Shown here piece after piece: positions 13,129 to 64,000 of a stretch of DNA of 64,000 bases. The notes under the pieces were generated by a model. It saw nothing but the letters and a program-made list of their open reading frames with translations, was not told the origin of the DNA and did not search any database. How positions within the stretch are numbered: the first letter of the stretch is position 1; each line of letters starts with the position of its first letter. The translations under genes and the position numbers were made by a program. The stretch spans positions 48,856,001 through 48,920,000 of the forward strand of contig CM075101.1 in the NCBI GenBank assembly GCA_037576195.1, in the 5' to 3' direction. This DNA is from Phytoseiulus persimilis (lineage: Eukaryota > Arthropoda > Arachnida > Mesostigmata > Phytoseiidae).

Positions 13129-13451
13129 CAGTACAACCTCGATTATTTCAACTTTGATTATTCAAACCTTTTGCATTTCAACCTCGATTATTTCAACTCT
13201 GCGGTACAGGCCGAAGGATGTCAACCGGAAGCGTTTTTAATGTCGAAGATGAATCCATCCTTCAGAATCTTCCATCGTCAATATATCTCGTATCATTCTG
13301 CATTGCTTAGCGTTCGAACTCGGATTCTCATTTCCGAATGGGTTGCGGAGTCCGAGAACGTGGGTGATTTTGTCATCTCTCGTTTATTTCAGCTTTCGAT
13401 TATTTCAACTTTTTTTTGCATCAATTAGTTGAAATAATCGAGGTTGTACTG
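13129..13451. mobile_element. pogo/Tigger-like MITE, copy 2, with internal end duplication
   Basis: A 323-bp copy of the element at 949-1228, with the same perfect 24-bp ends and TA flanks (13127-13128 and 13452-13453). The interior is clearly homologous (CAGGCCGAAGGATGTC and CATCGTCAATATATCTCG are shared). It is about 43 bp longer because the left terminal motif CCTCGATTATTTCAACT occurs twice, separated by a short TTTGCATTTCAA stretch. No coding capacity for a transposase is visible. Confidence 0.9.
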
Positions 13452-18259: not shown

Positions 18260-21200
18260 TTTTTCTCTTGAGGTTCAAGAAAAGGACTGCATTTGACGCG
18301 GCCTGACTGATTTCTCGGATTATCTGAAATGCCCAGAACTAATCACCTGGCATCGAGTTCGCCGACGAGACCCTAGTAGAAATGAAGACAACTCGCTCGA
18401 GCTAATTGAGATGTGAGCAACTGGATAATATACCAGCGAATTGATTGCCTCTCCTTGAATCGTGATTTCCCTCGCCACGAGAGCTGCGAATTCTCCAATG
18501 GACTCCTAGGTGTCCAACTCATTCGTGACTGACAGCTCTATAGGAGGCAAGGTTTGACAAGCTCGTTTGTCACATGGCGGATCGCGGATGATTTTCGATC
18601 GGATTCACTTTCCCTCCGCTCTAACCTCTACGAGGGAGCTCGAAACGGCTGTTCGTCAGACGACGTGTGTGCTGACCGTCAGCGAGTCTCAGTAACACGC
18701 ACTAGAGCCGGCAACGCAAAGCTGCCGGAAGTGAGAGAAAATCTCTTCAAAAAACTCTCGCCTTCTCCACTCTCTCGTGAGAAGCAGCGCTCGGGTCTTT
18801 CTCAGCGGGAGCGACGGACTGTGGAGCAGGTTGAAGAGATGGATGGAATAGGAAATACCTACGGAAGTAATGCGGAGGATGAATAAATACGTTCATATAT
18901 CAACGGTGAGCTCGAAGCACCGACCCAAAGCTGAATTTGCGGTTTCTTATGCCAACACCAAGCCTGCTCCTCGAAATCTGTTCCATTATTCCAGCGCACT
19001 AAGGGTGTCTGAGCAGGATCGCAAACGTTTCCCCAATGAGAGCGCGGGTACAGCTATCGCGCATGAGTTTGCGACTTGAACGACGAATCTCTTGCGGGAG
19101 GAAAACCCGCGGAAGCTCCGGTTTCTTTCTTCGTTGCGAAATCCTCGATTGTCCTCATCATCGTGCTCGAAATACGCTCCGATTTCGGAGAATATCCATC
19201 GCGGGAGAACCTTTGCTGGAAAGTATCTTTCGGCCGAGCAGCAATTTTTCAAGAACTTCCAGCTGGATACCTCTCAACGGACTCGAAATACGGTCGGGTT
19301 GTGAGCGTCCCAAAATCGAGCTTTTACTGTAGGAGTCGACAGTTCCAAAATATCTCCAGTGATTAAAAATGTTTCCACAATATTTTCTGAGCGCGGAAGG
19401 GGAGAGGGATTTTCCGTTTTTCGAGAAGTACCACGAAACGAGCTGAAAATTTTGATGGTGTTATCGCTCGTTCCTCCGGTTGCCTGTAGCACGTACCGTC
19501 GAATCGAAGTCGTTTCCATCCATGGAACGGGACGATTCCGCTGAAGAACGGACGACCACAGCAAATTCGTCCCGGGACGAGATTCTCAAGTTCTGTCGGC
19601 GATTCATGAGAGTCGACAACAAAACACAAACTTCGGCAACGATCGCCTCGGCTGCTAAGGAATTCCCAAGATCGATCCCCGGTTCGTAAACCCCACATCG
19701 CGGCGGTCGCAGCAAAGCGTTTATGAACTCCGGAAACGTCCGAGCCGTCCCTGAACGAGATTGAATTTCCCGTTAAGGTAACGAGGAACGTTTCTTAGCT
19801 TCCTCCGTCGAAAGGTAATTGACTCCGCGACCGAGCACGGGCAGACCCTGGATCGCCAGGGCTGATCAGCGTTCACTTCGATTAAATATCTCGAGTGGCT
19901 CGAAACTGCCTCAAAGAAATGTTACAGGAGCATGGAGACTTTTGCTAACGCAGAGCCGGTACGAGAGTGCTCGCCAGGGCGAGTTATGGGAACATCTGAC
20001 TCTCAATGAAGCGTTCCCCTGTCCGAACGATGGCACACGGTTCTCGATCGGAACCTGATCGATACGGGGGCGCCGGAATACTCGGCTTGACCGATTAGTC
20101 CGAAAAAAACGAGAGTAGTAGGACTGCGAAAAACGCCTACCCGGATAAATATTCAGTTTTCTTTCCCTGGTGTGTCCAAGGACATTGCGAACTTCGGTGA
20201 GAGTGCCGTCGACCCGAAAACGTTGAAAGGCTCGAAGGAGAGCCTTCCGCTTTCCGACGAGCAGCCGGCTCGAGTGGCTGGCGTGTGAACTTTCATCCGA
20301 ACGTTCATCTCAAAGGCAATGACCGCATGAAATGTGCATACATACGGAGGACGTGGTCTTTTCCAAACGAGTTACGACTCTCGTGGGAATGGACATCCGA
20401 AGCGAGCGCCGGAACAGCTTCGTTCGCCTTTTTGTACTTGTTAGCTTTCCAGCCCTAATTTCCGAGCTGCCCGTACCCGACACGAGTCACCGGAGAGCTT
20501 CCGGTGACTGAACCGGAAAGAGTCCGCGCGCACAGTATTCGATATTCTACCAGATGGTCAGCGGTTTCTCGAACTGAGCCTTCGTGTGTGAATGTCGGTC
20601 AAGTTTTCCGTCGCACCTATATAAACAGTGGGAGCCAGGTACGAAACACTCGTGGGAATGGAGAGCTCCACGGAATGATGAGAGCAACATTCCCGAGTCA
20701 AATCGCGCGTGCGTTCGCCTCCGGGCAATCGACGCCCTAATGGAAGGCAGTGGCACGCTCCAGGGAAGCCATGCGGTGGAAATGTGCGATAGGCTAAGGG
20801 TGTGGAAAAGCGGCGGGAGGAGGCTGGGGTGAGGGGAGGAGAATCGTGGCAATGGAACCGGGGGCGATAGCAGGCGTAGTATTGAGAGCCGAGAGCTCGG
20901 TCGGGTGCAGCTAATCTTCCGGAAAGCGAGGCGCTCAATCCCACACCAGGACGCCGTGAGGCGGGCTCTGCCAAGGAGACGCTTTGCCTGGAAAACGCCA
21001 TCCCGCTCCCTGGCGTCACATCATCGGTGGAAAGTGACGCGCCAGCGGATCGATGCCGCTCGTGGGAAGTCGAATGATCCTCGAAGGGTCACCCGATATG
21101 GCCTCGGGTACTTCAAACGTAAGCTGACTCATCGCGGCATTCGACTCCGTCCAACAGAATTGCGCACTTCTCCTGAATTGAGAAACATGACGCAATTTTC

Positions 21201-39982: not shown

Positions 39983-40583
39983 AAGCCGAAAATTCGAACC
40001 CGAAACGCATGAAGCCGAAAAATCGAGCCCGAAAAGCATGAAGCCGGAAACCTCCTCTCCCAACGGCGGAGTGTTCGGGACTGGTTTGGCGGGATGGGAT
40101 TTCTGTATCGTTTCGTCGATCTGTACCTTTGTGAGACTCATTTGGATGACACGCACCTGCTGCGAAGAATCAGTGTTTCGATGCCGGTTTCCCCTCTTCG
40201 GTGGGAAAGAACAAGGTGTTGTAACAGCGTATTCTGCGAATAGTACTGGAGCTGGAGGTGAAGATTCCTCTTCAGTTCTAGCGAGTTGACCTCGGATACT
40301 TCAATATTCGCGCTCAGCAGATTGCTTCCTGTAGCAGCTACACCTTTGCTCAGTTCGAACTAGGGACCGTAGATGCGGAACAGCGAGGACGGAAGCGAGG
40401 CAGAAGAAGTGGGTAGGCTGAGCATAACGAAGGTGCAATTCCTCCCCGCTAAGCCAGTCCCAACCGCTCCGCTGTTGGGAGAGGAGGTTTTCGGCTTCAC
40501 GCTCTTCAACTTTATGCCTTTCGGCCTCATGCTTTTCGGGCTCGATTTTTCGGCTTCATGTATTTCTGGCTCGATTTTTCGGC
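39983..40583. repeat. fold-back element with 29-bp minisatellite arms
   Basis: The arms are inverted. The left is about 39983-40105 and the right about 40430-40583, separated by about 325 bp of single-copy sequence. Each arm carries tandem 29-bp units (GAAGCCGAAAAATCGAGCCC, then GAAAAGCAT), about two on the left and three on the right. Each is followed by a matching inner block containing CCTCCTCTCCCAAC and a GGGACTGG motif. Outer ends show no clear target duplication. A fold-back or MITE-like DNA element is the likeliest identity. Confidence 0.8.
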
Positions 40584-49500: not shown

Positions 49501-52500
49501 TCCACGGCACTCCGCATGTCACATTTCTCATTCGTTGCTCAAATGTTGAGAAGATTCGTTGACACATGTGCCTCCCTAGTTCAGTCAGCTGGAGGATCCA
49601 AACGTCGCAGATTCCTCACATGTCTGACGGCGTTCTGATCGATCCGGAGCGAATGTTCAAAGATCACTCTAGGATTCGTGGCTCTCGAGAGATGAGCTGG
49701 CGGACGCTGGGCTCCACCTCTGTCTCTCCACGGTTTCGAAGCAGCCGATCCCGATGGCACACCTACATTTCCCCCCGCAGTTGTTCACCGGTCATTTTCG
49801 GAGGAATCCCAGTTCGAATCATCAAACGGGATGGTGCCAGAGAATCAAGGACTGAAGCCGAGCGCTATCTCAGGTGCTTGCTGGGAATGACTCCAGGCCG
49901 AGAGGGCGGTGTGGAGCCCGCTCACGAACCCAGTCCTGATGCACCAGGACACCGATGAGGCAAAAACATCGGGATGACAAGGTACGTGCGGTCATATATT
50001 CAATGCTTTTTTCCCACTTCGATGCGGACGACAGCGCAGGCGATAACTGGTATCGGATAATTTGCCGTAAGCCTCCCTAGAAACGGAGTTGACGTCAGAC
50101 GGCGGCTGTGCTTTTTCTTTTTTTCCATGTGCGGAGATCTTCTCGCTTCTATCTCTTTATCAATATTTCTCTCTTTTGTGTCGACAAGCGAGGCTTTTGT
50201 GTGCTGTCGTATGTATGGTCGGTGTTGGCGGTGACAACGATGATGACGGCGGCGGCGGCCACGGCTAAAGCAGCAGCAACACCAACAACGACGATAGTCT
50301 TGCTTTGTCAGATGCTAATATGTCGACGCCATTGGTCAATATGCTCGGTTCCTGCCGCTGTCGAAGAGTGTGGTTCAGCTCACAGCAAACAAGTGACAGC
50401 TCGTGGCGGCCGCCCCCTGACGTCACCCTCTGGGTCGTGGTTCCGGAGCGCTCCTCCGAGCTCTCCGCTGCTATTTCTCGGTTCGCCCCCGTCGGCGGAT
50501 ATCCTCTGCGCAAACAACACCGAGTACGCGGACAAGGCACGCAGAAGATGACCGAACGTGCTTCAAGCCGCGGGCGTTGCTCAACTCATTGTGGCAGAAC
50601 ATTCCAAGCCTTGACAGGAGGAGACGACGCGGTGACAAGCCCCAACGGTGTCGCTAGAGCTCGGCTTCCAAGCGACTGTCCTGGGCAGGAGGTATAAAAT
50701 CATGATTCCGCCCAGACTCTCGTCCTGTCAGAGCAGGGATTCGAAACTGTTCGAGACCGATGTTGATACTGACCGATTAAAAATCTCGGTGATTTGCGAG
50801 AGGAACTCCCACGCTCAACTGGAATTTCTCGAGAGGCGGGTTCGTGTGTTGAGGACCCGAAAATGCGAAGTTGCTTCAGGGGAACCCAAATTAGTACAGT
50901 GGCAAATCGAGACCAACCCAGCCCCAGTACAAGCGTCGTCCTGAAGCTCCTGACAACAGCAACAGCGACCCCGACGGCAACGACAGTGCCACCTAGCTCC
51001 ATTGTTCTTATCTGACGGTGTGGCCGGGAGCTGTTTCATTAGGGTTTTCAGATGTCAGCACCTCAACGAAAGGACGATCAAGTGAGCGGGTGGGGGCCCG
51101 ACCGAACAACGAGTGGAACAAGGTCGAGAGAAAGAATAAGAACGCTACCGAGCACTCACAGGAGCTGGATCATTCACCGCCTGTCTGGGTCGCTCTGGTT
51201 CGCTGGCGGGACCGCTCGCTCGCTTCGCGCTCCAAAGAGTCTGCTGAGGTGAGTGTTCGAATCGCACAAGCTACCTCGAGCGATAACCAGGCGATAAAGA
51301 CCGGTGGTGATTATCAAGTGACTCGATACGCAGCACTGTTCGTTCGAGAGTACGGTGAGGGCTGATTTTTCTCACTCGACTACGAAAACGTTGAGTATAT
51401 CGGAGGTTGACGCTCCTTTCTAGCTAATTCACATCCGTTGTCGTCGTCCTACCCGAATCCCAGTTACACGACTCCAGGATAACCTCTCTCACCGCCAAAT
51501 CCTCACGCTGTTGAGTCCAGAGTCACGACGGATCCCTAGGAGAAGCATAGGAACTGACTGAAAGAGATATGCACTCCTCTGACACAACAAGGGTGGAGTC
51601 CATACGAATATACGAAGTCGTATTCGTGCATTGAAGTACAGCGAAGTCTACAGTGTATTTCCACAAATCTCGAGCCTCAGATGTGACATGCGGAATCCAA
51701 ATATGGCTCGAGAACCATGAAAACCCACGGGCGGAAAGTCGCGGGGATCTACTTAGTCCTTCAGTGTTGGCCGGATTTCCCGGAATGCGCGCGCAATAGC
51801 CCACCAGCAGAGTTGACGCGATCTTGCTTCGCGGCCCACGTGCGCTCCATTTGCATCAGCAAGCGAGAGCTTCGAAACTTTCAAGGATTTTACGTGAACC
51901 GCTGGACCTTTCGACCTTTGTGTCAAGTTTTACTCTTCTTGTTCAACTTGAAGATGAATGCGACAGAGGCGCACCAAAGGCTCGCAGGAGCTTACGGCGA
52001 ACATGCTCTAAGCAGATATATCGGAAACTTCAATAAATAACAAGAGATTCTCACCATCACTCTTCAGCCACTCCTTTCAGCAGCTCAACCCGTCATACTC
52101 GACGGAGAGGCAGCATTGGCTGACTTGAACTTTCGAAGTTCCATGTGCGAGCAATTCGCCATGCACATGTAGCTTCTGCGCATGAGGATTCAGCGGTGAG
52201 AGAGGGTAATTTGGATTCGGGTAACTGGTACCCGACCTTCTCGTGAGGACGCCCTGCTTCAGCGAGCTCTTCAATCGCATGGATGCCGGGGAAGAGGGGG
52301 CGGTTGGATCGCCTCCGGAATGTTCGATCAACTCGAATCGAATCTTCTTCTGCCTTCAGGCTATTGCACTGCCTGGGTGATTGTCTTCGAGGAGCCTACC
52401 TCCGGAATCCGGAGAACCCGAGCAGCGCGTCATATTTCCATCCTAACCGCCACCTAAGCTCTCCGAGATTCAGGGGCTCATTTCGAGGGGCGGGCCAACG

Positions 52501-54591
52501 TCATTCCCACACCTTCTTAGAGGAGGGAGGAAGGGGAATGAGCGGTCAGTCCCAAAGATCATTAGCATGATGTCTCAGGTGCCGGACGAACATTTTCGGG
52601 GAACGAGCGTGACCAGTCCCCCTCTACTTCGCTTCAGCCTTGATTCCAGATGGGGGCGCTCGTCTCGAAAGATGCTCTCTGGAATCTCGCCAGCGGAGCA
52701 TTTCCGCGGGGAGGTACGACTTGTCTGCATGAGCTCGACGCAGCGGCAACTATGGTATGACACGACAACTTTTTCTTGGGTACATTTAGGTTGCAAGTTT
52801 CGTTGCCGACATCACGCCAAGGGTGGCGTCAACGTTCTACCTGCTGTCGTCATCGTGAGCTGCGGAGACGGTGACGTACCTTTCAGCGCGGTCGGTGTGG
52901 CGGCCTTGGAATCCACACAAGCGGATGAATTCCCCGTTTTTCCGCGGTGAACTCCTCCACAGAATCACCGGGAAACCACGCCTGGACTTTTTGCAGGTTT
53001 CGAAGATTGCCAAGGAGTGAATCCTGCACAAACGATGGGGAGAGAATACTTTCCATCCGATTGGAGCTTTTGAGTCGCGTCTGAGGTCCCGTGCGACGTG
53101 CTCCGACGGTCCAAACACAGATGGCATCGTTATCGGAGCACCGTTTTCGTGTGACTTCGGCCGCGGCTGTGATAGAATGTCGCCAACAGCTATGAAACAA
53201 ATACAGACACCGCTCATAAGCCTCCCCGTACAGGAATCCACGTACAATTTGGTGGATAGGCTCTCCTTTCTCTCGGTTCGTACGCGGACTTCAAGTGCCT
53301 GCGGTGCGGACGGCGGTCGCCGAAAATTTGCCTTGCTTTCGGAAGCTTGTTTGTGCCCCGCCAGGAGAATCACGGAAGATATTCGCGTCATATCATTCCT
53401 TCCGGTTGAGCCTCGAACGACCTGCGGCTCGTCACAAAAAAAAAGGAACTGGCTTCGTCAGTTGACGTCACCAGCGGCAAAAAACCAGCACCGTGACAGG
53501 TGGCTGCCGCGCTGTAATTAGCTGCGAGAAAGCTAATGATACCAAAGGTGGGTCTTGCACGCTCCATGAGAGAACTCCCATCATAGTTGCCTGGTGGACA
53601 CGCTCGTTCTATTTCCACAGCAGCACCCCCGCTGTTCCATGTTCGCTCCGCAAGTCGGGTTGAGCTCGAGTTTGTTCTTTCCTCGATCGAGGAAGGGGAG
53701 GCTCGAAAGTAAACGTCACCGAAAAATTGGGGACCTTCGGAGTAGTTTGTTCCCCGCATTCTTCGGCACGGGCTTCCCTCTCCCAATCGTATGTACCCAC
53801 CATCTAGGTTTTGTGCCCGGGATGAGCAGCACTATCGAACGAGGAGCAAATCATGAACAGATCCTGCTCGCGTCGCGTCTGGTCAAGGGGAGCCTCGAGC
53901 CGATGGCGGTGCAGGAACAACCCCGGAGGCGGAACACACTGATTCTCGTCAGGTTTCGGACGATCGATTGAATCGAACCGTTCATTAGGACAAGAGTTCG
54001 TTTGAGAGGCTTCGAAACGCGTTTTGGAGCTCTAGGACCCACTGCGAGCTTCAGAAAACGCTCGCTCAGCTCCGCGATGACACCGGAGTCTTCTTCGAGC
54101 TTCGTTCTCCAGGGACGCCGTATACTTCTCTATTCGAAATTCACCCGCAGTAGAAGTGCCGTCCATAGATTCTTCTCGTCGACGATGATGGACAGAATCC
54201 GAGTCGCGACGGAGTGGAGTCAGGCGCGGGGCCTGATCGCAAACTTGCAGAGTAGCAGAAATGTATGAAACTCTGACTGTTGACATGATCAACCTGTAGA
54301 CAAGACTCGTTGAGATTACCATCTGTTGACCACAGATCATGGGCGTTCCCCCTCACTTGCCTGTGATGGTTCGCGACGAAAGAGGAACCATCCACGAGTA
54401 ACCCTCAGACCCCAGCAAGTCGGAGAAACATATATTTAGCCCCACTGCGCCGGACGTGTGAGTTCCATCGCTCAACAAATACTCGCACTTTCGCAATTAT
54501 TCGATCAGCCTCTCCGACACGCTCCGTTGAAGAAAGAGACCGTTGCTCAATTGGAATGTAAAATAGAAATATTCATTCCGACATTTCATCG
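40584..54591. other. long stretch without recognised genes
   Basis: The longest frame in the whole window is here (minus, 45182-45871, 229 codons) and is not recognised. Others include plus 44746-45207 (153 codons) and minus 52837-53391 (184 codons). A GGC/GCA/ACA trinucleotide patch lies at 50235-50292, and TATAAAA at 50693-50699 has no supported exon behind it. Confidence 0.5.
50235..50292. repeat. mixed GGC/GCA/ACA trinucleotide-rich tract
   Basis: Contains GATGATGACGGCGGCGGCGG, then GCAGCAGCAACACCAACAAC. It reads as Ala/Thr-rich on plus. No gene context is evident. Confidence 0.8.
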
Positions 54592-54597
54592 TTTATT
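54592..54597 (-). terminator. candidate polyadenylation signal AATAAA for beat module B
   Basis: This is the first AATAAA I see on the minus strand after the stop at 55373. It would give a 3' UTR of about 0.8 kb that includes the CA repeat at 55208-55228. The assignment is by position only. Confidence 0.35.
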
Positions 54598-55207
54598 CTT
54601 CGATATATTTACAATGCGACAAAGTTTACGCGAACCAAAGCATCCATCCCGGCTCGAACAGTGTCGGAGAACTAATTCAGAAAGTTTCGAGAGCAATTTC
54701 GCTCGATGACATGCGGTGTGGAGTTTTCGATATACCTGGTGCTTGAGTCTTCGGTTTCTCGCGTTGCTCTCTGGCACCCGGAACGCGACTCATCGGTGAC
54801 TCCATCGGTCACGATACCGTTACATCGAGAGTTCAACCACTTTCCCTCTGCTCCAAGAGTCCCATCGATGAGATCATGATGACGACCCCACGCGTCCTCT
54901 ATGGATGCGATCATGTCTCGAAGTCCGACAGGCGTTCCGAGGTGTTATGAACGCTGCATTGGCTCATGAATCGCTGCGCAGCTGCGGGAATCCTTCATCC
55001 GAATTTTCGGCGTTCTCTGTTATCGCTCCGGTTTCTCGGCCGATCCCCGATTCTTCATCTTCGTCTGCTTATCTCTTTTCTCGCGTATCCCCGTTCCAGA
55101 GTCGTGGTTTCTTCCTCTTCGTTGTGCCTCGTGCGAGGAACGAACGTGGCGGCGGCGGCAGCGCGAACGGACAAACCGGCGGGCGGTAGCACAACGCAAA
55201 CAACTTT

Positions 55208-55228
55208 CACACACACACACACACACAC
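55208..55228. repeat. (CA)n microsatellite in the likely 3' UTR of beat module B
   Basis: An uninterrupted CA run of 21 bases on the plus strand (GT on the transcribed strand), about 145 bases past the stop codon at 55373. Confidence 0.95.
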
Positions 55229-55372
55229 GCTCACAGACATATTGTAAATGATATGCAGACGAGAATAGCGGAGCCGATATGCATTTGGAAAGTAGTGCGT
55301 CTTCTAACATCGATCGTATTTACACATTCACAGATACGACAGGGAAGTTTGATCTATATCATCAACAAACAT

Positions 55373-55479
55373 TCACGCCAACCTCGACGTTAGCAGAAAC
55401 GCCAGTGCCGTTGTCAGTAACGCTGTCGACGCGTCGACCGCAGTCCTTGAGCTCGTTCTCGACATCGAGCTCGAAGAGT
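55373..55479 (-). CDS. beat: beat exon: module B terminal exon, hydrophobic C-terminus
   Basis: The acceptor tcgtttacag|AC joins the T of the previous exon to form Tyr. It encodes YSSSSMSRTSSRTAVDAST, then a short hydrophobic end (ALLTTALAFLLTSRLA) and TGA. Small residues followed by a terminal hydrophobic run fit a GPI-attachment signal. A single-pass anchor with no cytoplasmic tail is the alternative. The phase-1 acceptor could also be used by the module A exon ending at 60108. Confidence 0.8.
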
Positions 55480-57186
55480 CTGTAAACGATTCGATGATAA
55501 TTTCACGCTTCGGAATTTCTCAAGTCAGTGACGCGGTGCATCTACTTAAAGCCCACGCCCGGATTGATTCTTGGGAGAAAGATGGGGCTGTCTTCGAGTA
55601 AAAATAGACAGTGTGATGATATCACTCCGAAAGCACCCCCAGCGAACGACGGCGTTGGCGCTCCTCACGAACCCGATCCAGAGAAACAGGATGCGTGACC
55701 TCCCTGCGATATGCAGAGTCTACTTACATTGACTGAGATTGTTATCGTAAATTGACGGAGGTTGCTGCTGTTGCTGTTGGCTCCGTCTCGAGCCGTCCGG
55801 CGAGCGATGGATCACGTGGGGTCTCTTGGGCCCTTCGACCTCGGCGATGCACTTCAGCTGGAGCTGGTCATGGTGAAAGTGTCCGGATCGAACTGGAAGC
55901 ACAGCCCAGTGTTACTCACGAGCTCCGAACAAGACTTGGACCGCGCCCATCGAAGACCGGTCGATCTGACGGATCAGATAGATGTGGTCTCATCGATTCT
56001 GCAGAAAGCAGGAGCAGGGTCTGGGAAGGCCGATTGTTTTCCTAGTTCAGTGTTTCTCAACGTGGGGCACGGGGAATTCGCAGTGGGGTATGGAGTCTAC
56101 TGGTTCGCTGATGGAATTTTGATCCTCATCAGTCGAATTCAGAGCGCATCTCATTCTCGACCACAGTCGGTGGCACTGAGGCCGCGCTGGGCATGGGGAG
56201 CTTCTGGTTGAAAAACTGGGGCCTGTGAGGGTTTCAGTTGATCCCTCACGTGAATCGTACGGACCCGGGGCTTCGGGTCACCTGTATGTATTCCGCCAGG
56301 CTCTTCGACATCCATCCGAGAGGTTTTCGGTAAGAGACCGCTTCCAGAATTGCTCTCTGGCACTGAGGAAGTTTCGCGCTGCGCGGGTTTCGAGCGGCAA
56401 TGTGGTCGGAACCTGACGCAGCTGACAGCGCAGACGAGGTCTCGAGGCTTTTTTCGGAGGAGGAAACCGCCGGCGTCTCGGAAGTACTTTCAGTCCCGGA
56501 AACTTCCGAAGGAGGCTCCGCTTGTTATTCGGCTTTCACGTGCGTCTCGTAACATATTCATTCAGGACGGAATTCCTCTCGTTGCCGGGGTAGATATCTC
56601 TTGTGAGAGCAGCGAGAAGTGTCGCCAGCCACCAATCAAGCAACTTTGCCGCGCCGTCGTTGCCGTATCTCAACCCATTTCGCTTCATGCCACTTCACGT
56701 CTACCTGTTTGTGTGTTGGTGTGAGCGCGTGTTTTTTTTTCTCTATCGGGGCCAGGGGGTGAAGGGGGCGGGGAATGTGTGATGCAGACCAGTCACAGCT
56801 CCAGGCCTGGGGCAATTCCCGACCGCGATCGGGAAGCCGCGGTGGAAAGAGCAATTCGCAACGAATTCCAGAGCGAGCGAACGGCCCGCGGTGAGCGCCG
56901 GCGGAGGACCGGGCGCTCGCGGAAAGGGGGTCGCTCAACGACGCGGTGGGGCGCTAAGGTCACTTACCGGTGAACTGCAGTCCCAGCGCTGTCTGGAAAC
57001 GTCCTTGGCTGAGTTTCTTGGGATGATATTGAACCAGAAAACGAGCCGGCACCTCCTCATCGTTCAGGAGCCATTGCAGAGTTACGGGCTTGCCTTGTCG
57101 AGTGTACATGCACGTAACGTTCATGGTGTCCCCGACGTGGTAATGCGCCTGTCCCCCGTATATCACGGGTCCGTCGTCAGGAATCT
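55373..57186 (-). CDS. beat: Beaten path family Ig domain 2 module B with GPI-like C-terminus
   Basis: Three exons: 57186-56968, 55892-55728 and 55479-55373. They give 163 residues from the start of Ig2 to the stop. Ig2 opens IPDDGPVIYGGQAHYHVGD, aligning position by position with module A. It keeps the NVTC sequon with its B-strand Cys, the core Trp in LQWLLNDEE, TALGLQF, HF and the F-strand Cys in LQLKCIAEV. A basic, Gln-rich linker (SQQQQQQPPS) follows. The last exon is Ser/Thr-rich and ends in the hydrophobic stretch ALLTTALAFLL just before the stop, as expected for GPI anchoring (inference). No Ig1 exon was found between 57187 and 59961. The module therefore either shares the Ig1 exon at 63724-63859, which is phase-compatible and would give KVY-E-IPDDGP, or belongs to a paralogue whose 5' exons I cannot see. 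Confidence 0.85.
55728..55892 (-). CDS. beat: beat exon: module B, end of Ig domain 2 and polyQ linker
   Basis: The acceptor is gctgtgcttccag|TT and the donor CAAT|GTAAGT. Both ends are phase 1. It encodes RSGHFHHDQLQLKCIAEVEG, carrying the second Ig2 Cys, then a Pro/Arg/His-rich linker with a run of six Gln (a mixed CAA/CAG repeat) and a tail ending YDNNLSQ. Confidence 0.9.
56968..57186 (-). CDS. beat: beat exon: module B, most of Ig domain 2
   Basis: The acceptor is ttttccattaacag|AG and the donor CACCG|GTAAGT. Both ends are phase 1. It encodes 72 full codons, IPDDGPVIYGG through TALGLQFT, uninterrupted at the position where module A has an intron after the C strand. Confidence 0.9.
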
Positions 57187-59961
57187 CTGTTAATGGAAAA
57201 GAACGTTGCTGTTGATTGGGAGCGCTGCAGTAGTTGCGACGCATGCCGGAATTTCGGCGTGAACCGCGAGAGTAGGCTCCGGTAAATCAACACCGGTTGC
57301 GGACGTTTTCAAATGAGTTCGGCGATTCATAGTCGTTACTGGGCGGGCAGCGGCTCTCTGAATGTCCTGTCGGATCGAAGACTCTGGATGGCACCTCGAC
57401 GCGAGATGCGCTTTCTTTTCGGATGACATCGGTCGTCGTCTTGCTAGTCCCGTCGTTCTTGCATGCTTCGTCTGACGTTTTGAGATTGAGTTCCCTCTTT
57501 CGTTTGTGGACATGTATCGAATTCTTTGCTGTCGAGAAACCGCAGCGCCTTGTGTCACATCATAGGTTTAAGTTCTGACAAGGATCTTTCTTGCTAGTTT
57601 TGCATGCTACGGTGTGCGAAGCCGCCTGCTTGTCTCCGGTACCTTGGGAAGCATCTCAATTTGGAAGGTAAGCCGAGACCGGGACATCCAAACACGCTTC
57701 CGCTCCAAATCAGCAGCCGATGCGTTTCTCCGAACTCATCAGCAGTCCCAGAATCCGACAGAGATCACTCCTTCTCAAGCTCCCCACCTCGAGGACCAGC
57801 TGTCCAAGCGCGTTTTGTCGCGGAGCAGCTTCGTCTCCCCTCCGCAAACCGTTGACTCCGGTTCCAGCATCGGTCGAAGGCGCTTGAGACGAACAGCGTG
57901 CTGGCTCCGGATCACGGTTGACGATAGGACCGCGCTGAATTCCGGAAATACGATGAATGATCGATGCTGAAGAGCTGCATTCTCGCGACGCGGATGGGGT
58001 TCCACAAGCCCGAAACTGCCGCGGCTCGTCGTTGGTTACATATGTAGATGCATTCTTGCACATTGTTCGACGCAGAGAGGTTCCTCGTATTCTTCCGGCG
58101 TTGGAGCTCGAGCTCGACGACCGGCTCACCAGAAGCAGATGATTACGCATGCTTCGATGTAACGGACTGCGATCGGCGGTAGTTTTGAGAAGCCGTTAGA
58201 CATCGGAGTCCTGAATAGCGACGAATGAGTCGGAGAGAACATCCTGTGACCCCGGCCGGAGTGAACTTGCCGGACAAAAAAGCGAGATATTCACCGTTTT
58301 GCCAGGCTCTCTATTCGATAAGTTCTTCAGTGATGGCGGCTTTCGAGAGAGAAAATACTTCTGTAATCATCTCTGTTGCTACGAGGGAACGTCACTCGTC
58401 TGCGGGGACATGATCGTGGAGCACCGGAACATGTCACACCGGTCGGGTACCACTGTCGCAGATGACTACATCAACGGTCCATCGATGCAAACACTCCCAT
58501 TGCGAGAAAACGATTCCCTCGAGGGCTTTAGCAGAACGACTGCATGTAACATAGGGCTGCATGTCACTGCGCATGCCAGCGAGTCCATGCAAGCCTCGAG
58601 CTATGTGCAGGTACGGAAGCCCTTGTATTTCTCCTCCATCGATGCTGTTCAGCGCACTGAGACATTTGGAGGCAACCGCTGGGCGAAAACGCAGGTGTGG
58701 GAGCTGGCGCAATCGCTTCATCTCACGGAGCTGATTCAATGGCTGAAGCCCTTCCTTCTACGGCTTCGCTGATAAAGGGCAATAAACATCCGAACGGAGA
58801 ACGCGCTCCTCCACGAGCAATGGAAACCCACGCTCTGGGAGCTCCGTGCACCTGAGATCCGTTCACCGGAGCGTGCGGCGAAACGCGAAATCTAGCCGAG
58901 ATCGAACCGAGCGGCAGGGAGGGAATCCCGCTGACCTCCCGTCGTTCGCGATCGATCCACGTCCAGACGGTCGAACGGTGACCCCGTCGCGTGAACGACG
59001 GAACAGCACCAACGGGCGCCGTCGTCCAGAATTCCTGGGAAGGGCGCTCAACGAGGGTGAGACAGAATGAGGGGCGAGCGTTCGTCCGGAATCATCCGAA
59101 GGCGAAAGTGCCGGGGAATCGATGATCGAGTCGACGGCGGCGGAAGGTGTTTCCAATAGGTTCGAGTGCCGGCTGTGAACAAGTTTCGAAGAAACTTCGG
59201 AATGCTACCAACCGACTCCGCTGGCTATGTCTCCCGTGAATTGATCCATTAGGACTCCCGTCTGGCTCTTCTCCGTCGGCTCGATCGGATCGATACGGAG
59301 ATCGCTTTTTCGATTGTCTTCGGATCTCGGCCGATTGAGGACGACCCTGGAAGTCGTCTAGCGTGAAGTTTGGGAGGAACATCGAGCCAGGGAATGAAGA
59401 AATTCCGAGGGAGATCGGCGTGCGGGAAGGGAAGTGGTGCTGCTGTTCTGCCTTGTTCCCAACGGTTGCCTTCTGCTCCAGTAGGTTTTGATGGAGTCGC
59501 GCTTTTGGGCATTCAAACGATCTTGACCAGATGGTCTTTGAGCATGGGGTTCTCAGAGCTCTCTCCGACGATGCTTCCATGCGGGAAATGGAAGCTTCAT
59601 GTTTAACATAACCTGTGCTCAGACAGGAGCTTCTTATCAAGTTTCTCTGGGGATGGATTTCCGAGGCTCGGGTGTTAGTCGCAGGTCTTGGTTGGGGCAT
59701 TAGTGAGTTCGGTTGCGAAAGAGCCTTTTTTTCCGCAGACGAGCCGGCGGCTTTACGTCATAATCACTCATGCCGAGCAGGACAGGAGAAGCGGAGCTGG
59801 TCCGGCTTCTTGTTCTGTTCCTTCTCCGCCATCTTTCATATCCGGCGGATCGACTGCCCCGTGCCGTTTTCGTAACCTTTGCGCGGGAGGAAGGAACACC
59901 ACGAACATGTTCGAAAGAATTCCGAGTTCGTCCTGCGATCCTAGTTCTTGTCCAAGCTTCC
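57187..59961. other. interval between beat modules A and B; no exon recognised
   Basis: Either intergenic or a large intron. I read the minus strand for the Ig1 F-strand pattern (Cys-Glu-Val/Ile with a following AP-x-F) and for signal-peptide-like starts, and found neither. Several open frames of 60-200 codons exist on both strands, the longest on minus at 59092-59700, but none resembles a known domain. Confidence 0.6.
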
Positions 59962-60008
59962 TCATCGCCGAGTTGATGGAGTCGTCACTGTCGCGTAAGA
60001 ACTCGGTG
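59962..60008 (-). CDS. beat: beat exon: module A terminal exon, hydrophilic tail
   Basis: The acceptor gagtttttcacag|CA lies 99 nt after the module A donor and restores the frame: A-PSSYATVTTPSTRR-stop. The tail is Ser/Thr-rich with no hydrophobic stretch, so the product would be secreted. By eye I see no AATAAA or ATTAAA on the minus strand between here and module B at 57186. This weakens the case for a separate transcript ending here, unless a non-canonical signal is used. Confidence 0.55.
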
Positions 60009-63000
60009 CTGTGAAAAACTCAAGGTTCCACGTCGGATATCTCTGGAGAGGCGAGTCAAGGATTGAGTCAAAGCTGACCATCGTTGGGAAAATAGAGCGG
60101 AACTGACCTTTCTGGTAGGTTCTGCTATCGATTCCGGCGACAATTTTCTCGCTGCTCATCGAAAAAGACTCTGAGATGGTAACCGTGCACTTGAGCTTCA
60201 TGGCGCCGGTGTAGTCGAAGTGTCGTTTCTGCGCTCGGAAAGTCAATCCTAGCGACGACTTCATGAGTCCGTTCTGTCTTTTCACCGGAAAAATCACCTC
60301 AGAAGCTCCATCCTCCTCGGAAGGCTGAAAAAATTAAGCAGATGCGCGCTGAATATGCTATTTACTGACTATGGGCAAATACGGCTACCCCCCCCCCCCC
60401 CCTTTCCCCGCACTCTCTCCGAAAAGAAAACCTCTTACGAAAATCCACTCGTGGTAAAAAAAACATGATTCCGTTGATAGGCGCGTTATCGCGGTGCGCT
60501 CCTCGAGGCGTGGGGAAGGTCGGACATCTGGGCCCGTCAATGATGGCGAGGTGAAAACGCAAGCTACGTGATCCAGGTCCATCCAAGTGAAGCTAAGCTC
60601 GCAATCGTTCCCGACCACGGAGGCTTCCCTCCCTTTCCTCGTGAACGCTCTTCGCTACAATGGCTCACAACACGAATCTCTGTGCCATGCCGCAGCCGAG
60701 TGGCTCCCGAACTTTTTGCGCGGAGGGGTGCGTCACGCTTTGTATCAACTCTTCGCGTCGAACTGTTTCGGTATTCAGCAGGAGTCCATTCGTTCCGGTT
60801 TCACCAACAATCTTACGAATTCCTACGCCTGACGGATCTCGACCATGCAGCGACTCTGACATTTTCTCGGCACCGACTCAATTTACTCATTCTTTCTGTC
60901 TGATGTGCAGCTCGGCGGTACGAAAAGCTCAGCAGAGCATGCTGCACCACAAGATGATCGAACCCCGCTCCCCATGGCCTCATGCGATTCCTTGCCAGCT
61001 TCGAGCATCGCTCGATTGGACCTACTGGAATCGGAAAGTTCGATTGATTCTCTCCTCACACGATTCGAGGTCAACGGACCTCGGAACAGCATGGGTGACT
61101 TGAGTACAGGCCGTCGGGTTCCTCTGCGGATGCAGTGGACTCCGCTTCGTCGGATTACACTGCTTCGAAACATTCTCAACCGATCGAGCGTGGATTTGTT
61201 GGAGGAAAAAAACGAAAGTGTGTCATCTGTCCTTTGATCTGAGTTTTCCACAAATTTGAATGGAAATGCTGACTCAACCGCTCTAATTTAATTGAGAAGT
61301 TTGCTCTGAATGAAGCTCCGACATCCGTCGACCCCAAAGCCGAAGCTCGATTCAAGTCTGAGGTCGGTGATCGCAGTCGACAAAGTGACTTCCTGGGAGT
61401 CAATCGGCGGAATATCTCTCGCCGCTCGATCCGCCCGATGTGGAATCTCGGGTGTGCATTTCGCCGGGAACGGAAGTAACAGATTTCTTCGTGATGACTC
61501 CCGAACGTACCCAGGAGCTCGACTGGTATCGAGCTCCGATAGAGAGGAAGCGAGACCCGTCTCGCTCCAGCGGAACAGCGGCAGCAGAGCTCAGCGAAAG
61601 ACCCCCAAAACTTTGCCGAAAGCGTACGAAAATTATTAGAGCGCTTCGAACAAATATCGATAGCTACAAACATCGCATTACATGATCGAACCCCCGGAGG
61701 TCCATTTCTGGGTCCAAGTTTGAGAAGATCCGATTAACCGGGGCGATCTCGATAGAGTGAATCTACGAGCTCGACCTTTAGCGGTATACACTGGGCATGT
61801 CGGGAGGGAGCGAGAAAACGACTGGGCGATTCAGAATCAAGCAGGAATTCTTCGACGACCTTCGGAAAGACTTTCAAAATTCGACCCCGAGGTTCCAGGC
61901 TCCTTGCTGCGATTGTCAGGAGAGCACAGAGTCTGCCGAATTCGGTTGCGAGCCTGGGTCGGCTGCTGCGAATCTGTCGACAGCAGATTCACGTTAATGC
62001 TGTTCTTTTAATGCTCTGTTAAATAGCAGAACCACTCGAGGGAAGCAGAAGGACTAAGTGGGCGGAGCGATAGGTCGCAGGAAACGCCAAGATCAGATGG
62101 CAACTTCACTAAACAGGAACGCTTGCCATCGTTAAAAGCGTTATCCCTCTTTATCTCTTCGGTCTCTGCCTCATTCTAGAGTATCCGCATCGATTCCTGG
62201 AAACGTCGGGCGACCAGGATTTTCACGGACGGTCGCCACGCTCTAGGTGTCGGCTATTGCCCTTTATTCTCGATTTTCCAGAGAGGACAAGATCTTCCTT
62301 TAACCAATCGGCATGGCTGTCGATATTCAACCCGCGGTCCGGCATGCCGTCAAGGAAATGTCTCACATCCCCGAAAAACGAATACGAGAGAAAAATCCAG
62401 TAACAGAATGACAAATCGTCCAATCAACATCTACCCCAAGGTCCACCTCAATTTGTGCATTGTCGTGCTTCACGACGATTCGGATCGCTCCGAGTCGATC
62501 GGAGTTTTCCGGCAAATCGAGTCAATGCTCGTTCTCTTCCGATGTCTCGTAACGCGACCGGAGATCCGGGACTCGCGGTTGTTTTCCAGTGAAAAGGCGC
62601 ACCACGAGGCGACGCGAAACAAGGATAATGATATCAAGGAAACGACAATGCTTGCTTACGTGGTATCCATTGATGAACCATTCGAGATTTCCGGCTGGCT
62701 TTGACGGCCCGGCATGACAGGTCACATTGACGATGTCGTCGAGTGAATACAGCGCTTTCACTCCAACGATTTCTGGTCCTTTCTTGGGGAGCACTGAAAT
62801 ATTGGAAAGAAGAAATCGCTCAATCAACTAGTGACAATGAATCTTCAGAAGGAAAATCGAGCGTTGTTTCTGTGAGCTGAAGTCCACGCAGCTGGGAGTC
62901 GTATACAGGTTGTCGAAACGAAATAATCGAGTCCTTATGGAATCAGTATATTCCTGAGCGCGTATGGCTCCAACCAGAACGACGATCCTATAGTGCTCAT

Positions 63001-63859
63001 GAACCGCGACTCCCACCTTCCTTGAGGATATCTCGGGTTCAAGCCCTGGCTTCTGGGAGAGTTTAATAGGATCCACCGGGCAATGTTTCCGCGAAAAGCG
63101 GATTCCAGTTCGTCGAATTAGGTCCGTTCGCAGTTCGAACCGACAGTTTTAGGGGGAAGAAGCAGCCGACAAACGAGCCAACAAGCAGCCGGCGCTCGAG
63201 AACTGCAGCTGGTGGTGCAACCGCCGCGACCACGGCTGCTGCTCTTGCAGGTGGTGGATAGTGGGAACAAACCACAGTTCGAGCCAAGAGTTGGAATCCA
63301 GTAGAGGTACGTATCCCAGAGCAGGAGGAGCGCTGCAGCTGGATCCTGATTCGTTTTCGAATAGTAGTGTGCGGGGAGATCACGCGAGTGGCTCACAACG
63401 ATTTCACGCAAGCGTGCACCGAATTCCTATCGGCGGAGCAGAGTAGCGCGAGCGGAGCAAGTGCGATCCACTCCATGTAGAGCTGACTGCATATCAGATG
63501 ATAAGCCTCGTGAATATCAGACGAACTCGCTGCCGCCGACAACAGCCACAAGACTCGAGCAGACAGTCGGATTAACTTGCAGACAACGGAAGAAGACCCT
63601 TCACAAACAGAGCAGCATCCGGAATGGAAACAATAAAACCATGGGGAGCCACAGCGAGTTTGTGAGGGTCCATCCAATCGCGGAAAGATACGAATGATAC
63701 TCCGAGGTACCACGATTACTCACCGTAAACCTTCAGTTCCTTCTCGGCGCTAATTGTCTGGAATGACGGGGCGTCTGCGCTGATCTCGCACTTGAAAGTG
63801 TCCTCTGTCTGCAGATCTGTTTTCGACAGCACAAGAGTGTTCATGTTCGATTTCTTCTT
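59962..63859 (-). CDS. beat: Beaten path (Beat) family Ig protein, module A, 5' partial
   Basis: Four exons: 63859-63724, 62793-62660, 60324-60108 and 60008-59962. They join in frame to give the last 177 residues of a two-Ig protein. Beat proteins are secreted or surface proteins that bind Sidestep-family partners and steer motor axons (family knowledge). The first exon gives the end of Ig1, with FKCEISADAPSFQTIS, the hallmark F-strand and AP-x-F motif. Ig2 starts GPEIVG, has the B-strand Cys in NVTC (a glycosylation sequon), the core Trp in LEWFING, the family motif SSLGLTF, then HF and the F-strand Cys in MKLKC. The chain ends in a hydrophilic tail, APSSYATVTTPSTRR, with no membrane anchor, so a secreted form is inferred. 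All introns have GT-AG ends, with pyrimidine-rich acceptors. The signal peptide and first half of Ig1 lie beyond position 64000. Family assignment is firm; the last exon is less certain. Confidence 0.88.
60108..60324 (-). CDS. beat: beat exon: module A, second half of Ig domain 2
   Basis: The acceptor is taattttttcag|CCT and the donor AAAG|GTCAGT, which is weaker than consensus at position +3. Entry is phase 0 and exit phase 1. It encodes a spacer PSEEDGASEVIFPV, then GLMKSSLGLTFRAQ, HFDYTG, the F-strand Cys in MKLKCTVTI, and a linker ending DSRTYQK. The reading frame stays open past the donor to the stop at 59962, so intron retention would also give a protein. Confidence 0.88.
60388..60402. 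repeat. poly-C tract (15 C) in beat intron
   Basis: A run of 15 C on the plus strand, 64 bases upstream (in transcription direction) of the acceptor of the module A exon starting at 60324. On the transcribed strand it is poly-G, so it does not form the pyrimidine tract of that acceptor. Confidence 0.95.
62660..62793 (-). CDS. beat: beat exon: module A, first half of Ig domain 2
   Basis: The acceptor is atatttcag|TG and the donor CAC|GTAAGC. It enters in phase 1 and leaves in phase 0. With the preceding G it reads VLPKKGPEIVGVKALYSL, then DDIVNVTCHAG, then LEWFINGYH. GPxIxG, the B-strand Cys within an N-glycosylation sequon and the core Trp are all present. The intron at its end, after the C strand, is absent from module B. 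Confidence 0.9.
63724..63859 (-). CDS. beat: beat exon: second half of Ig domain 1
   Basis: The acceptor is a long pyrimidine run ending tttctccag, and the donor is G|GTGAGT. Entry is phase 0 and exit phase 1. It encodes KKKSNMNTLVLSKTDL, then the F-strand Cys in FKCEIS, then SADAPSFQTIS and ending KVY. This strand E-F-G block is among the best conserved parts of Beat Ig1. It is the only Ig1 exon seen in the window. Its phase-1 donor fits the acceptors of both Ig2 modules downstream. Confidence 0.9.
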
Positions 63860-64000
63860 CTGGAGAAAAAAGAATCGCCCGCTTAGGCCGCGGTGTCAGT
63901 TCCATGCAGTCGGATGAACATCCCGACAAAAACATTGATTGTTCGCGGCGAGTTTGCCTGTTCTGGAATCCGAACGGGTCGCGAGCATTCCATCGGGCTC
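63860..64000 (-). other. end of a beat intron at the window edge
   Basis: The sequence upstream of the Ig1 exon acceptor shows no further Beat motif, so the exon for the first half of Ig1 must lie beyond the window. Confidence 0.6.

Follow-up and report, generated by a model that had tools for sequence, protein, structure and literature searches.

A Beat-type locus in which two Ig2 modules follow a single visible Ig1 exon

Beat-Side pairs are a model for neuronal partner choice; their diversity has been credited to gene duplication, and Beats are described as having two Ig domains (PMC5578738). A Beat-type locus on the minus strand of the 64,000-nucleotide stretch of DNA analyzed here (the window) has a partial-Ig1 exon (E1) followed by two Ig2 modules, A and B (Table 1), raising the question of whether the two modules belong to one protein, to alternative products of one gene or to two genes. 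A preliminary description had offered as plausible a single gene that swaps its second Ig domain by alternative splicing, with a tandem paralogue pair as the conservative alternative. The single locus with one visible Ig1 exon was borne out, whereas the DNA does not favour swapping over the other readings.

The exon boundaries, frames and sites of that description were confirmed: the modules begin with KVY-V-LPKKGPEIVG (A) and KVY-E-IPDDGPVIYG (B), and the acceptors at 62793 (A) and 57186 (B) are both phase 1, fitting the phase-1 donor of E1 at 63724 (GTGAGT). The identification of A and B as second Ig domains also held, each being made of two exons and each matching a solved fly Beat. E1 together with A matched Beat-Vc (PDB 9nsf) with E 1.9e-11, and E1 together with B matched Beat-Vb (PDB 9np7) with E 3.5e-7, E1 contributing part of the score in both cases. 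With the Pfam C2-set_2 model E1 plus B scored 24.9 bits, above the cut-off of 21, and E1 plus A 17.1 bits, below it. The layout of one Ig1 exon and two Ig2 modules stood as well, except that E1 is not a whole Ig1. It aligned to HMM model positions 75-108 only, the C-terminal part of the domain, so that the signal peptide and the remainder of Ig1 lie past the window end at 64000. Like fly Beat-Vb and Beat-Vc, the locus has the CE.S.DAP.F motif in Ig1 and the Cys/Trp core in Ig2, and the match runs across the Ig1-Ig2 junction, a homology to known Beats that identifies it by sequence as a member of the family; it differs from them in having two Ig2 modules after a single visible exon of Ig1.

Table 1. 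Exons and other features of the Beat-type locus, in the order of the minus strand. Splice-site ranks are percentiles (top %) among all GT or AG on the minus strand of the window.
Feature	Position	Strand	Description	Basis	Acceptor rank	Donor rank
E1	63724..63859	-	C-terminal part of Beat Ig1; phase-1 donor	homology, frame, HMM	0.02	0.18
A1	62660..62793	-	Ig2 module A, first half; acceptor in phase 1, donor in phase 0 after ...WFINGYH	homology, frame, HMM	0.59	2.56
A2	60108..60324	-	Ig2 module A, second half; donor GTCAGT in phase 1	frame, HMM	0.35	0.66
A2-to-B1 interval	57187..60107	-	2921 bp, no Ig1 exon detected	five kinds of search		
A3 (possible)	60020..60042	-	tail of 7 residues and a stop, reached across a 65-nt intron	frame; weakly supported	3.8	
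B1	56968..57186	-	Ig2 module B, first part; acceptor in phase 1, donor in phase 1 after ...LGLQFT	homology, frame, HMM	0.49	0.06
B2	55728..55892	-	end of Ig2 module B and Q-rich stalk	frame, HMM	11.85	0.27
B3	55373..55479	-	Ser/Thr-rich stalk, short hydrophobic C-terminus, stop	frame, hydropathy	1.85	
AATAAA	54592..54597	-	after module B; only AATAAA on the minus strand between 52000 and 60107	hexamer search		

When the whole window was searched with an HMM built including the E1, A and B sequences themselves, the top six of the best 25 matches fell in E1, A1, A2, B1 and B2, and the next had E 2. An independent HMM made from the Ig1 of fly Vb and Vc alone ranked E1 first (E 4e-4), its second-best match (E 0.8, 30262-30125) being distant from the locus. 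Splice sites were scored with a matrix and ranked against all 3326 GT and 4051 AG on the minus strand; those of the locus were all within the top 3%, except the weak acceptor of B2 and that of the possible exon A3. Among stop-free stretches of at least 30 aa in the window, a protein-composition score placed B1 second, E1 seventh and A1 19th. Since A2, B2 and B3 were absent from the 45 stretches listed and antisense stretches of A1, B2 and B3 were present, this score is weak evidence. One pattern scan each of a genome and a viral contig collection detected no relatives, as expected for an animal gene, the 56 and 7 matches, respectively, being unconfirmed.

Phase 1 is found at the donors of E1, A2, B1 and B2 and at the acceptors of A1, B1, B2 and B3. 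Splicing in line (E1-A1-A2-B1-B2-B3) gives a frame open from E1 to the stop in B3. The joins E1-A1, E1-B1 and A2-B3 are likewise in frame and E1-A1-A2-B3 is also open; both two-Ig and three-Ig readings are thus in frame at this locus. On the other hand, the mixed modules E1-A1-B2 and E1-B1-A2 lose the frame and meet stops, indicating that each module is functional only as a whole. The phase matching noted in the preliminary description does not tell the readings apart: exons of Ig domains are generally phase 1, as those of a paralogue or a tandem module would also be, so that the matching is no evidence for swapping. The A2 donor (60107), which that description did not take into account, is itself phase 1 and compatible with the acceptors of both B1 and B3, leaving an in-line three-Ig product open.

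The explanation ranked most likely from these sequence features, with a probability of roughly 40%, is one transcription unit joining A and B; swapping ranked second and tandem paralogues third, with wide uncertainty. One arthropod Beat gene would carry the Ig2 module twice in tandem, and its default product would be spliced in line from E1 to B3, a single RNA joining A to B. The predicted protein would start with a signal peptide and an Ig1 encoded mostly beyond the window, continue with Ig2A and Ig2B, and end in a stalk with a GPI-like tail. The open joint frame and the compatible phases favour this reading. Against it stands the description of Beats as two-Ig proteins in PMC5578738; neither a three-Ig Beat nor alternative Ig2 exons were named in the titles and abstract openings of the openly licensed literature searched.

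The second line of support is that no Ig1 exon was found between A and B, where the preliminary description had also seen none. With tblastn, E1, Vb and Vc gave no significant Ig1 match in this interval; minus-strand matches to E1 (57556-57482, E 7.7) and to a Vc fragment (59090-59031 and 59215-59147, E 1.2) were weak and rejected as noise. Pfam found no Ig family in the 20 of the interval's 38 non-exon ORFs that were searched, the five matches obtained being all below cut-off and none of them Ig, and local HMMs run on stop-free stretches of at least 15 aa gave no significant Ig1 among the best 25 matches. Ig1 motif patterns, searched in all frames of the window, matched on the minus strand only E1 and the distant positions 19624 and 6048; a plus-strand match at 59934 is irrelevant. 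No match anywhere in the window was obtained with a pattern for the beginning of an Ig domain. Finally, a splice-aware scan of the interval found no Cys-bearing phase-1 exon of 60-350 nt at strict thresholds, defined by the weakest donor and acceptor among the gene's own exons. In the flanks the same scan recovered E1, A2, B1 and B2, partly by construction, and the A1 coordinates in another frame. Relaxed thresholds yielded two candidates (59034-58936 and 57882-57788) that were not Ig-like by eye. The stretch 59986-59801, on the minus strand behind module A, was also rejected as an Ig exon, its ORF (60019-59771) having neither a Pfam match nor Ig character by eye; its composition is fairly protein-like (26th of the 45 listed), which is possibly noise.

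This result bears on the paralogue pair, in which B would belong to a second Beat gene whose signal-peptide and Ig1 exons were lost, are highly diverged, were misassembled or lie elsewhere. Clustered Beat paralogues are known in the fly (PMC5578738), and the tandem arrangement here resembles theirs, with the difference that the second module has no detected Ig1 of its own. The conservative alternative stands as a reading, but the Ig1 that it leads one to expect ahead of module B was not found in the 2.9 kb, by searches that include a fly-only HMM able to find E1. Two further points, the lack of a clear 3' end for module A and the lack of any N in the window, argue against it. For the first part of Ig1 the window offers no positive control, so that this part could have escaped the searches, and its absence is less sure than the absence of the C-terminal part. 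Overall, we consider a paralogue pair unlikely.

The relationship between the modules can be read in either direction. A and B matched each other with E 5e-13 (33% over 97 columns), and their Smith-Waterman score of 114 compares with a maximum of 44 among 1000 shuffles. Identity is 31.8% over 110 columns for A-B, 27.8% over 97 for A-Vc and 30.7% over 88 for Vb-Vc, so that the modules are as far apart as two clustered fly paralogues, and their inner introns differ in position and phase (phase 0 after WFINGYH in A, phase 1 after LGLQFT in B). Both observations speak for paralogues and against a single unit. The different intron places also indicate that A and B are not a recent exon duplication; self-comparison of 50001-64000 detected no duplicated DNA across the modules at E 1. 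The duplication is either old or fast-evolving, and it may have been a gene duplication. In an unrooted quartet with fly Vb and Vc, A grouped with B (RELL 0.982, delta lnL 10.8), which favours the one-unit reading, although the two fly Beats are from one subcluster only, so that an ancient split is compatible with this grouping, and the AU-test replicates were flagged as too few.

Further support for a single unit comes from the 3' ends. Module A ends about 7 residues past its last strand (strands assigned by eye), without a stalk or anchor of its own, whereas B carries both. The tail of B3 has a hydropathy peak of 2.35 over 11 residues and we infer, from its shape only, a GPI-signal-like C-terminus; a potential GPI signal exposed on cleavage is also mentioned for fly Beat (PMC9743010). 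The acceptor of B3, being phase 1, fits both B2 and A2. Two other ends of A are open in frame, the A3 tail and a 48-residue tail with a stop reached by reading through the A2 donor; both were considered and not relied on, the A3 acceptor being mediocre. None of AATAAA, ATTAAA, AGTAAA, TATAAA, CATAAA, GATAAA, AATATA and ACTAAA occurs between A2 and B1, where one AATACA, one AATAGA and two AAAAAG are found. The stretch between the B stop and 54000 contains a single AATAAA (54597), a single AATAGA and two AATATA. A clear separate 3' end for module A is therefore not seen. This is a weak argument, because chance predicts about 0.7 AATAAA for the A-B interval (15 on the minus strand of the window), genuine ends can lack such a hexamer, and the rarer forms AATACA and AATAGA are present. 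The two other open ends of A also count against the one-unit reading. Further features noted are a run of 15 G at 60388-60402 (minus strand) in the A1-A2 intron, where assembly slippage is possible, and a 49-nt inverted repeat (82% identical, 51460-51508 and 52180-52228) on the 3' side of the locus.

The same ends define the forms that swapping could take. One gene would choose Ig2A or Ig2B, either with A ending at its own stop (A3 or read-through, secreted) and B GPI-like, or with both sharing B3. The in-frame joins from E1 to either module and from A2 to B3 suit this choice, as does the lack of a second detected Ig1, and secreted and membrane-bound isoforms exist for fly Beats (PMC5578738). 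What would enforce it is harder to see. A and B can be included together without loss of frame, each choice involves a cassette of two exons, and the three known mutual-exclusion devices looked for (frame clash, a too-short intron, a U12-type donor) are all absent, the A2-B1 intron being 2921 bp long and none of the five donors U12-type. Pairing between introns showed no excess, 18 of 30 shuffles being as stable or more so in this crude and insensitive test. An end for the secreted form would need the mediocre A3 acceptor or read-through, with no AATAAA or ATTAAA after A3 before B. Swapping is thus possible and rather doubtful.

Choice among Ig-coding cassettes here would follow the same principle as the mutually exclusive Ig exons of Dscam1 and the 5' cassettes of chelicerate sDscam (PMC4835542). 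The flanking phases that such alternatives should share are shared by A and B, all being phase 1, although this is expected of Ig exons. The locus differs from those systems in having only two modules, 32% identical, with different inner introns and joint inclusion in frame. A combined scheme, that one locus makes three receptors by regulated use of the two Ig2 cassettes (Ig1-A, Ig1-B and Ig1-A-B), the end of A being either secreted or anchored, seems to us unlikely. Were it true, a Dscam-like principle would operate among guidance receptors that are held to have diversified by gene duplication.

A further reading, that module B, or A, is a decaying remnant used by no RNA, we regard as improbable. 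In its favour, no Ig1 belonging to B is visible and B2 has a weak acceptor; on the other hand, every exon of B is open, the cysteines and tryptophan of the Ig fold are retained, and the other B sites are strong. The second rank of B1 in composition points the same way, though none of A2, B2 and B3 appears in the list of 45 stretches.

Diversification of Sidestep-type recognition, proposed earlier as the gain from swapping, is weakened by the report that fly Beat-Ia binds Side through its first Ig domain (PMC9743010). By analogy, swapping Ig2 would probably not re-target Side, and a second or swapped Ig2 is more likely to affect spacing, contacts in cis or anchoring than the specificity for Side. 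In the one-unit protein, Ig1 would keep Side-type binding, and the additional Ig2 would alter the reach of the protein and its geometry near the membrane. One visible Ig1 with two Ig2 modules would imply a three-Ig or a splice-diversified Beat, either of them a new architecture relative to the family description in PMC5578738, and either would separate the role of Ig1 (binding) from that of Ig2 (geometry, anchoring).

Elsewhere in the window, the top composition score among the stop-free stretches belonged to 31554-31411 (minus strand), possibly an unrelated exon, with another good score directly downstream (31406-31314). Two short arrays of 29-bp units (39983-40050 and 40488-40583), with units AAGCCGAAAAATCGAACC... 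and TTTCGGCC...GGGCTCGATT, are roughly reverse complements by eye and are possibly parts of a mobile element. The 16-bp unit TCGATTATTTCAACTT forms short arrays at 1157-1189, 13134-13197 and 13380-13412, about 12 kb apart, the unit at 13134-13197 being a 15-bp near form.
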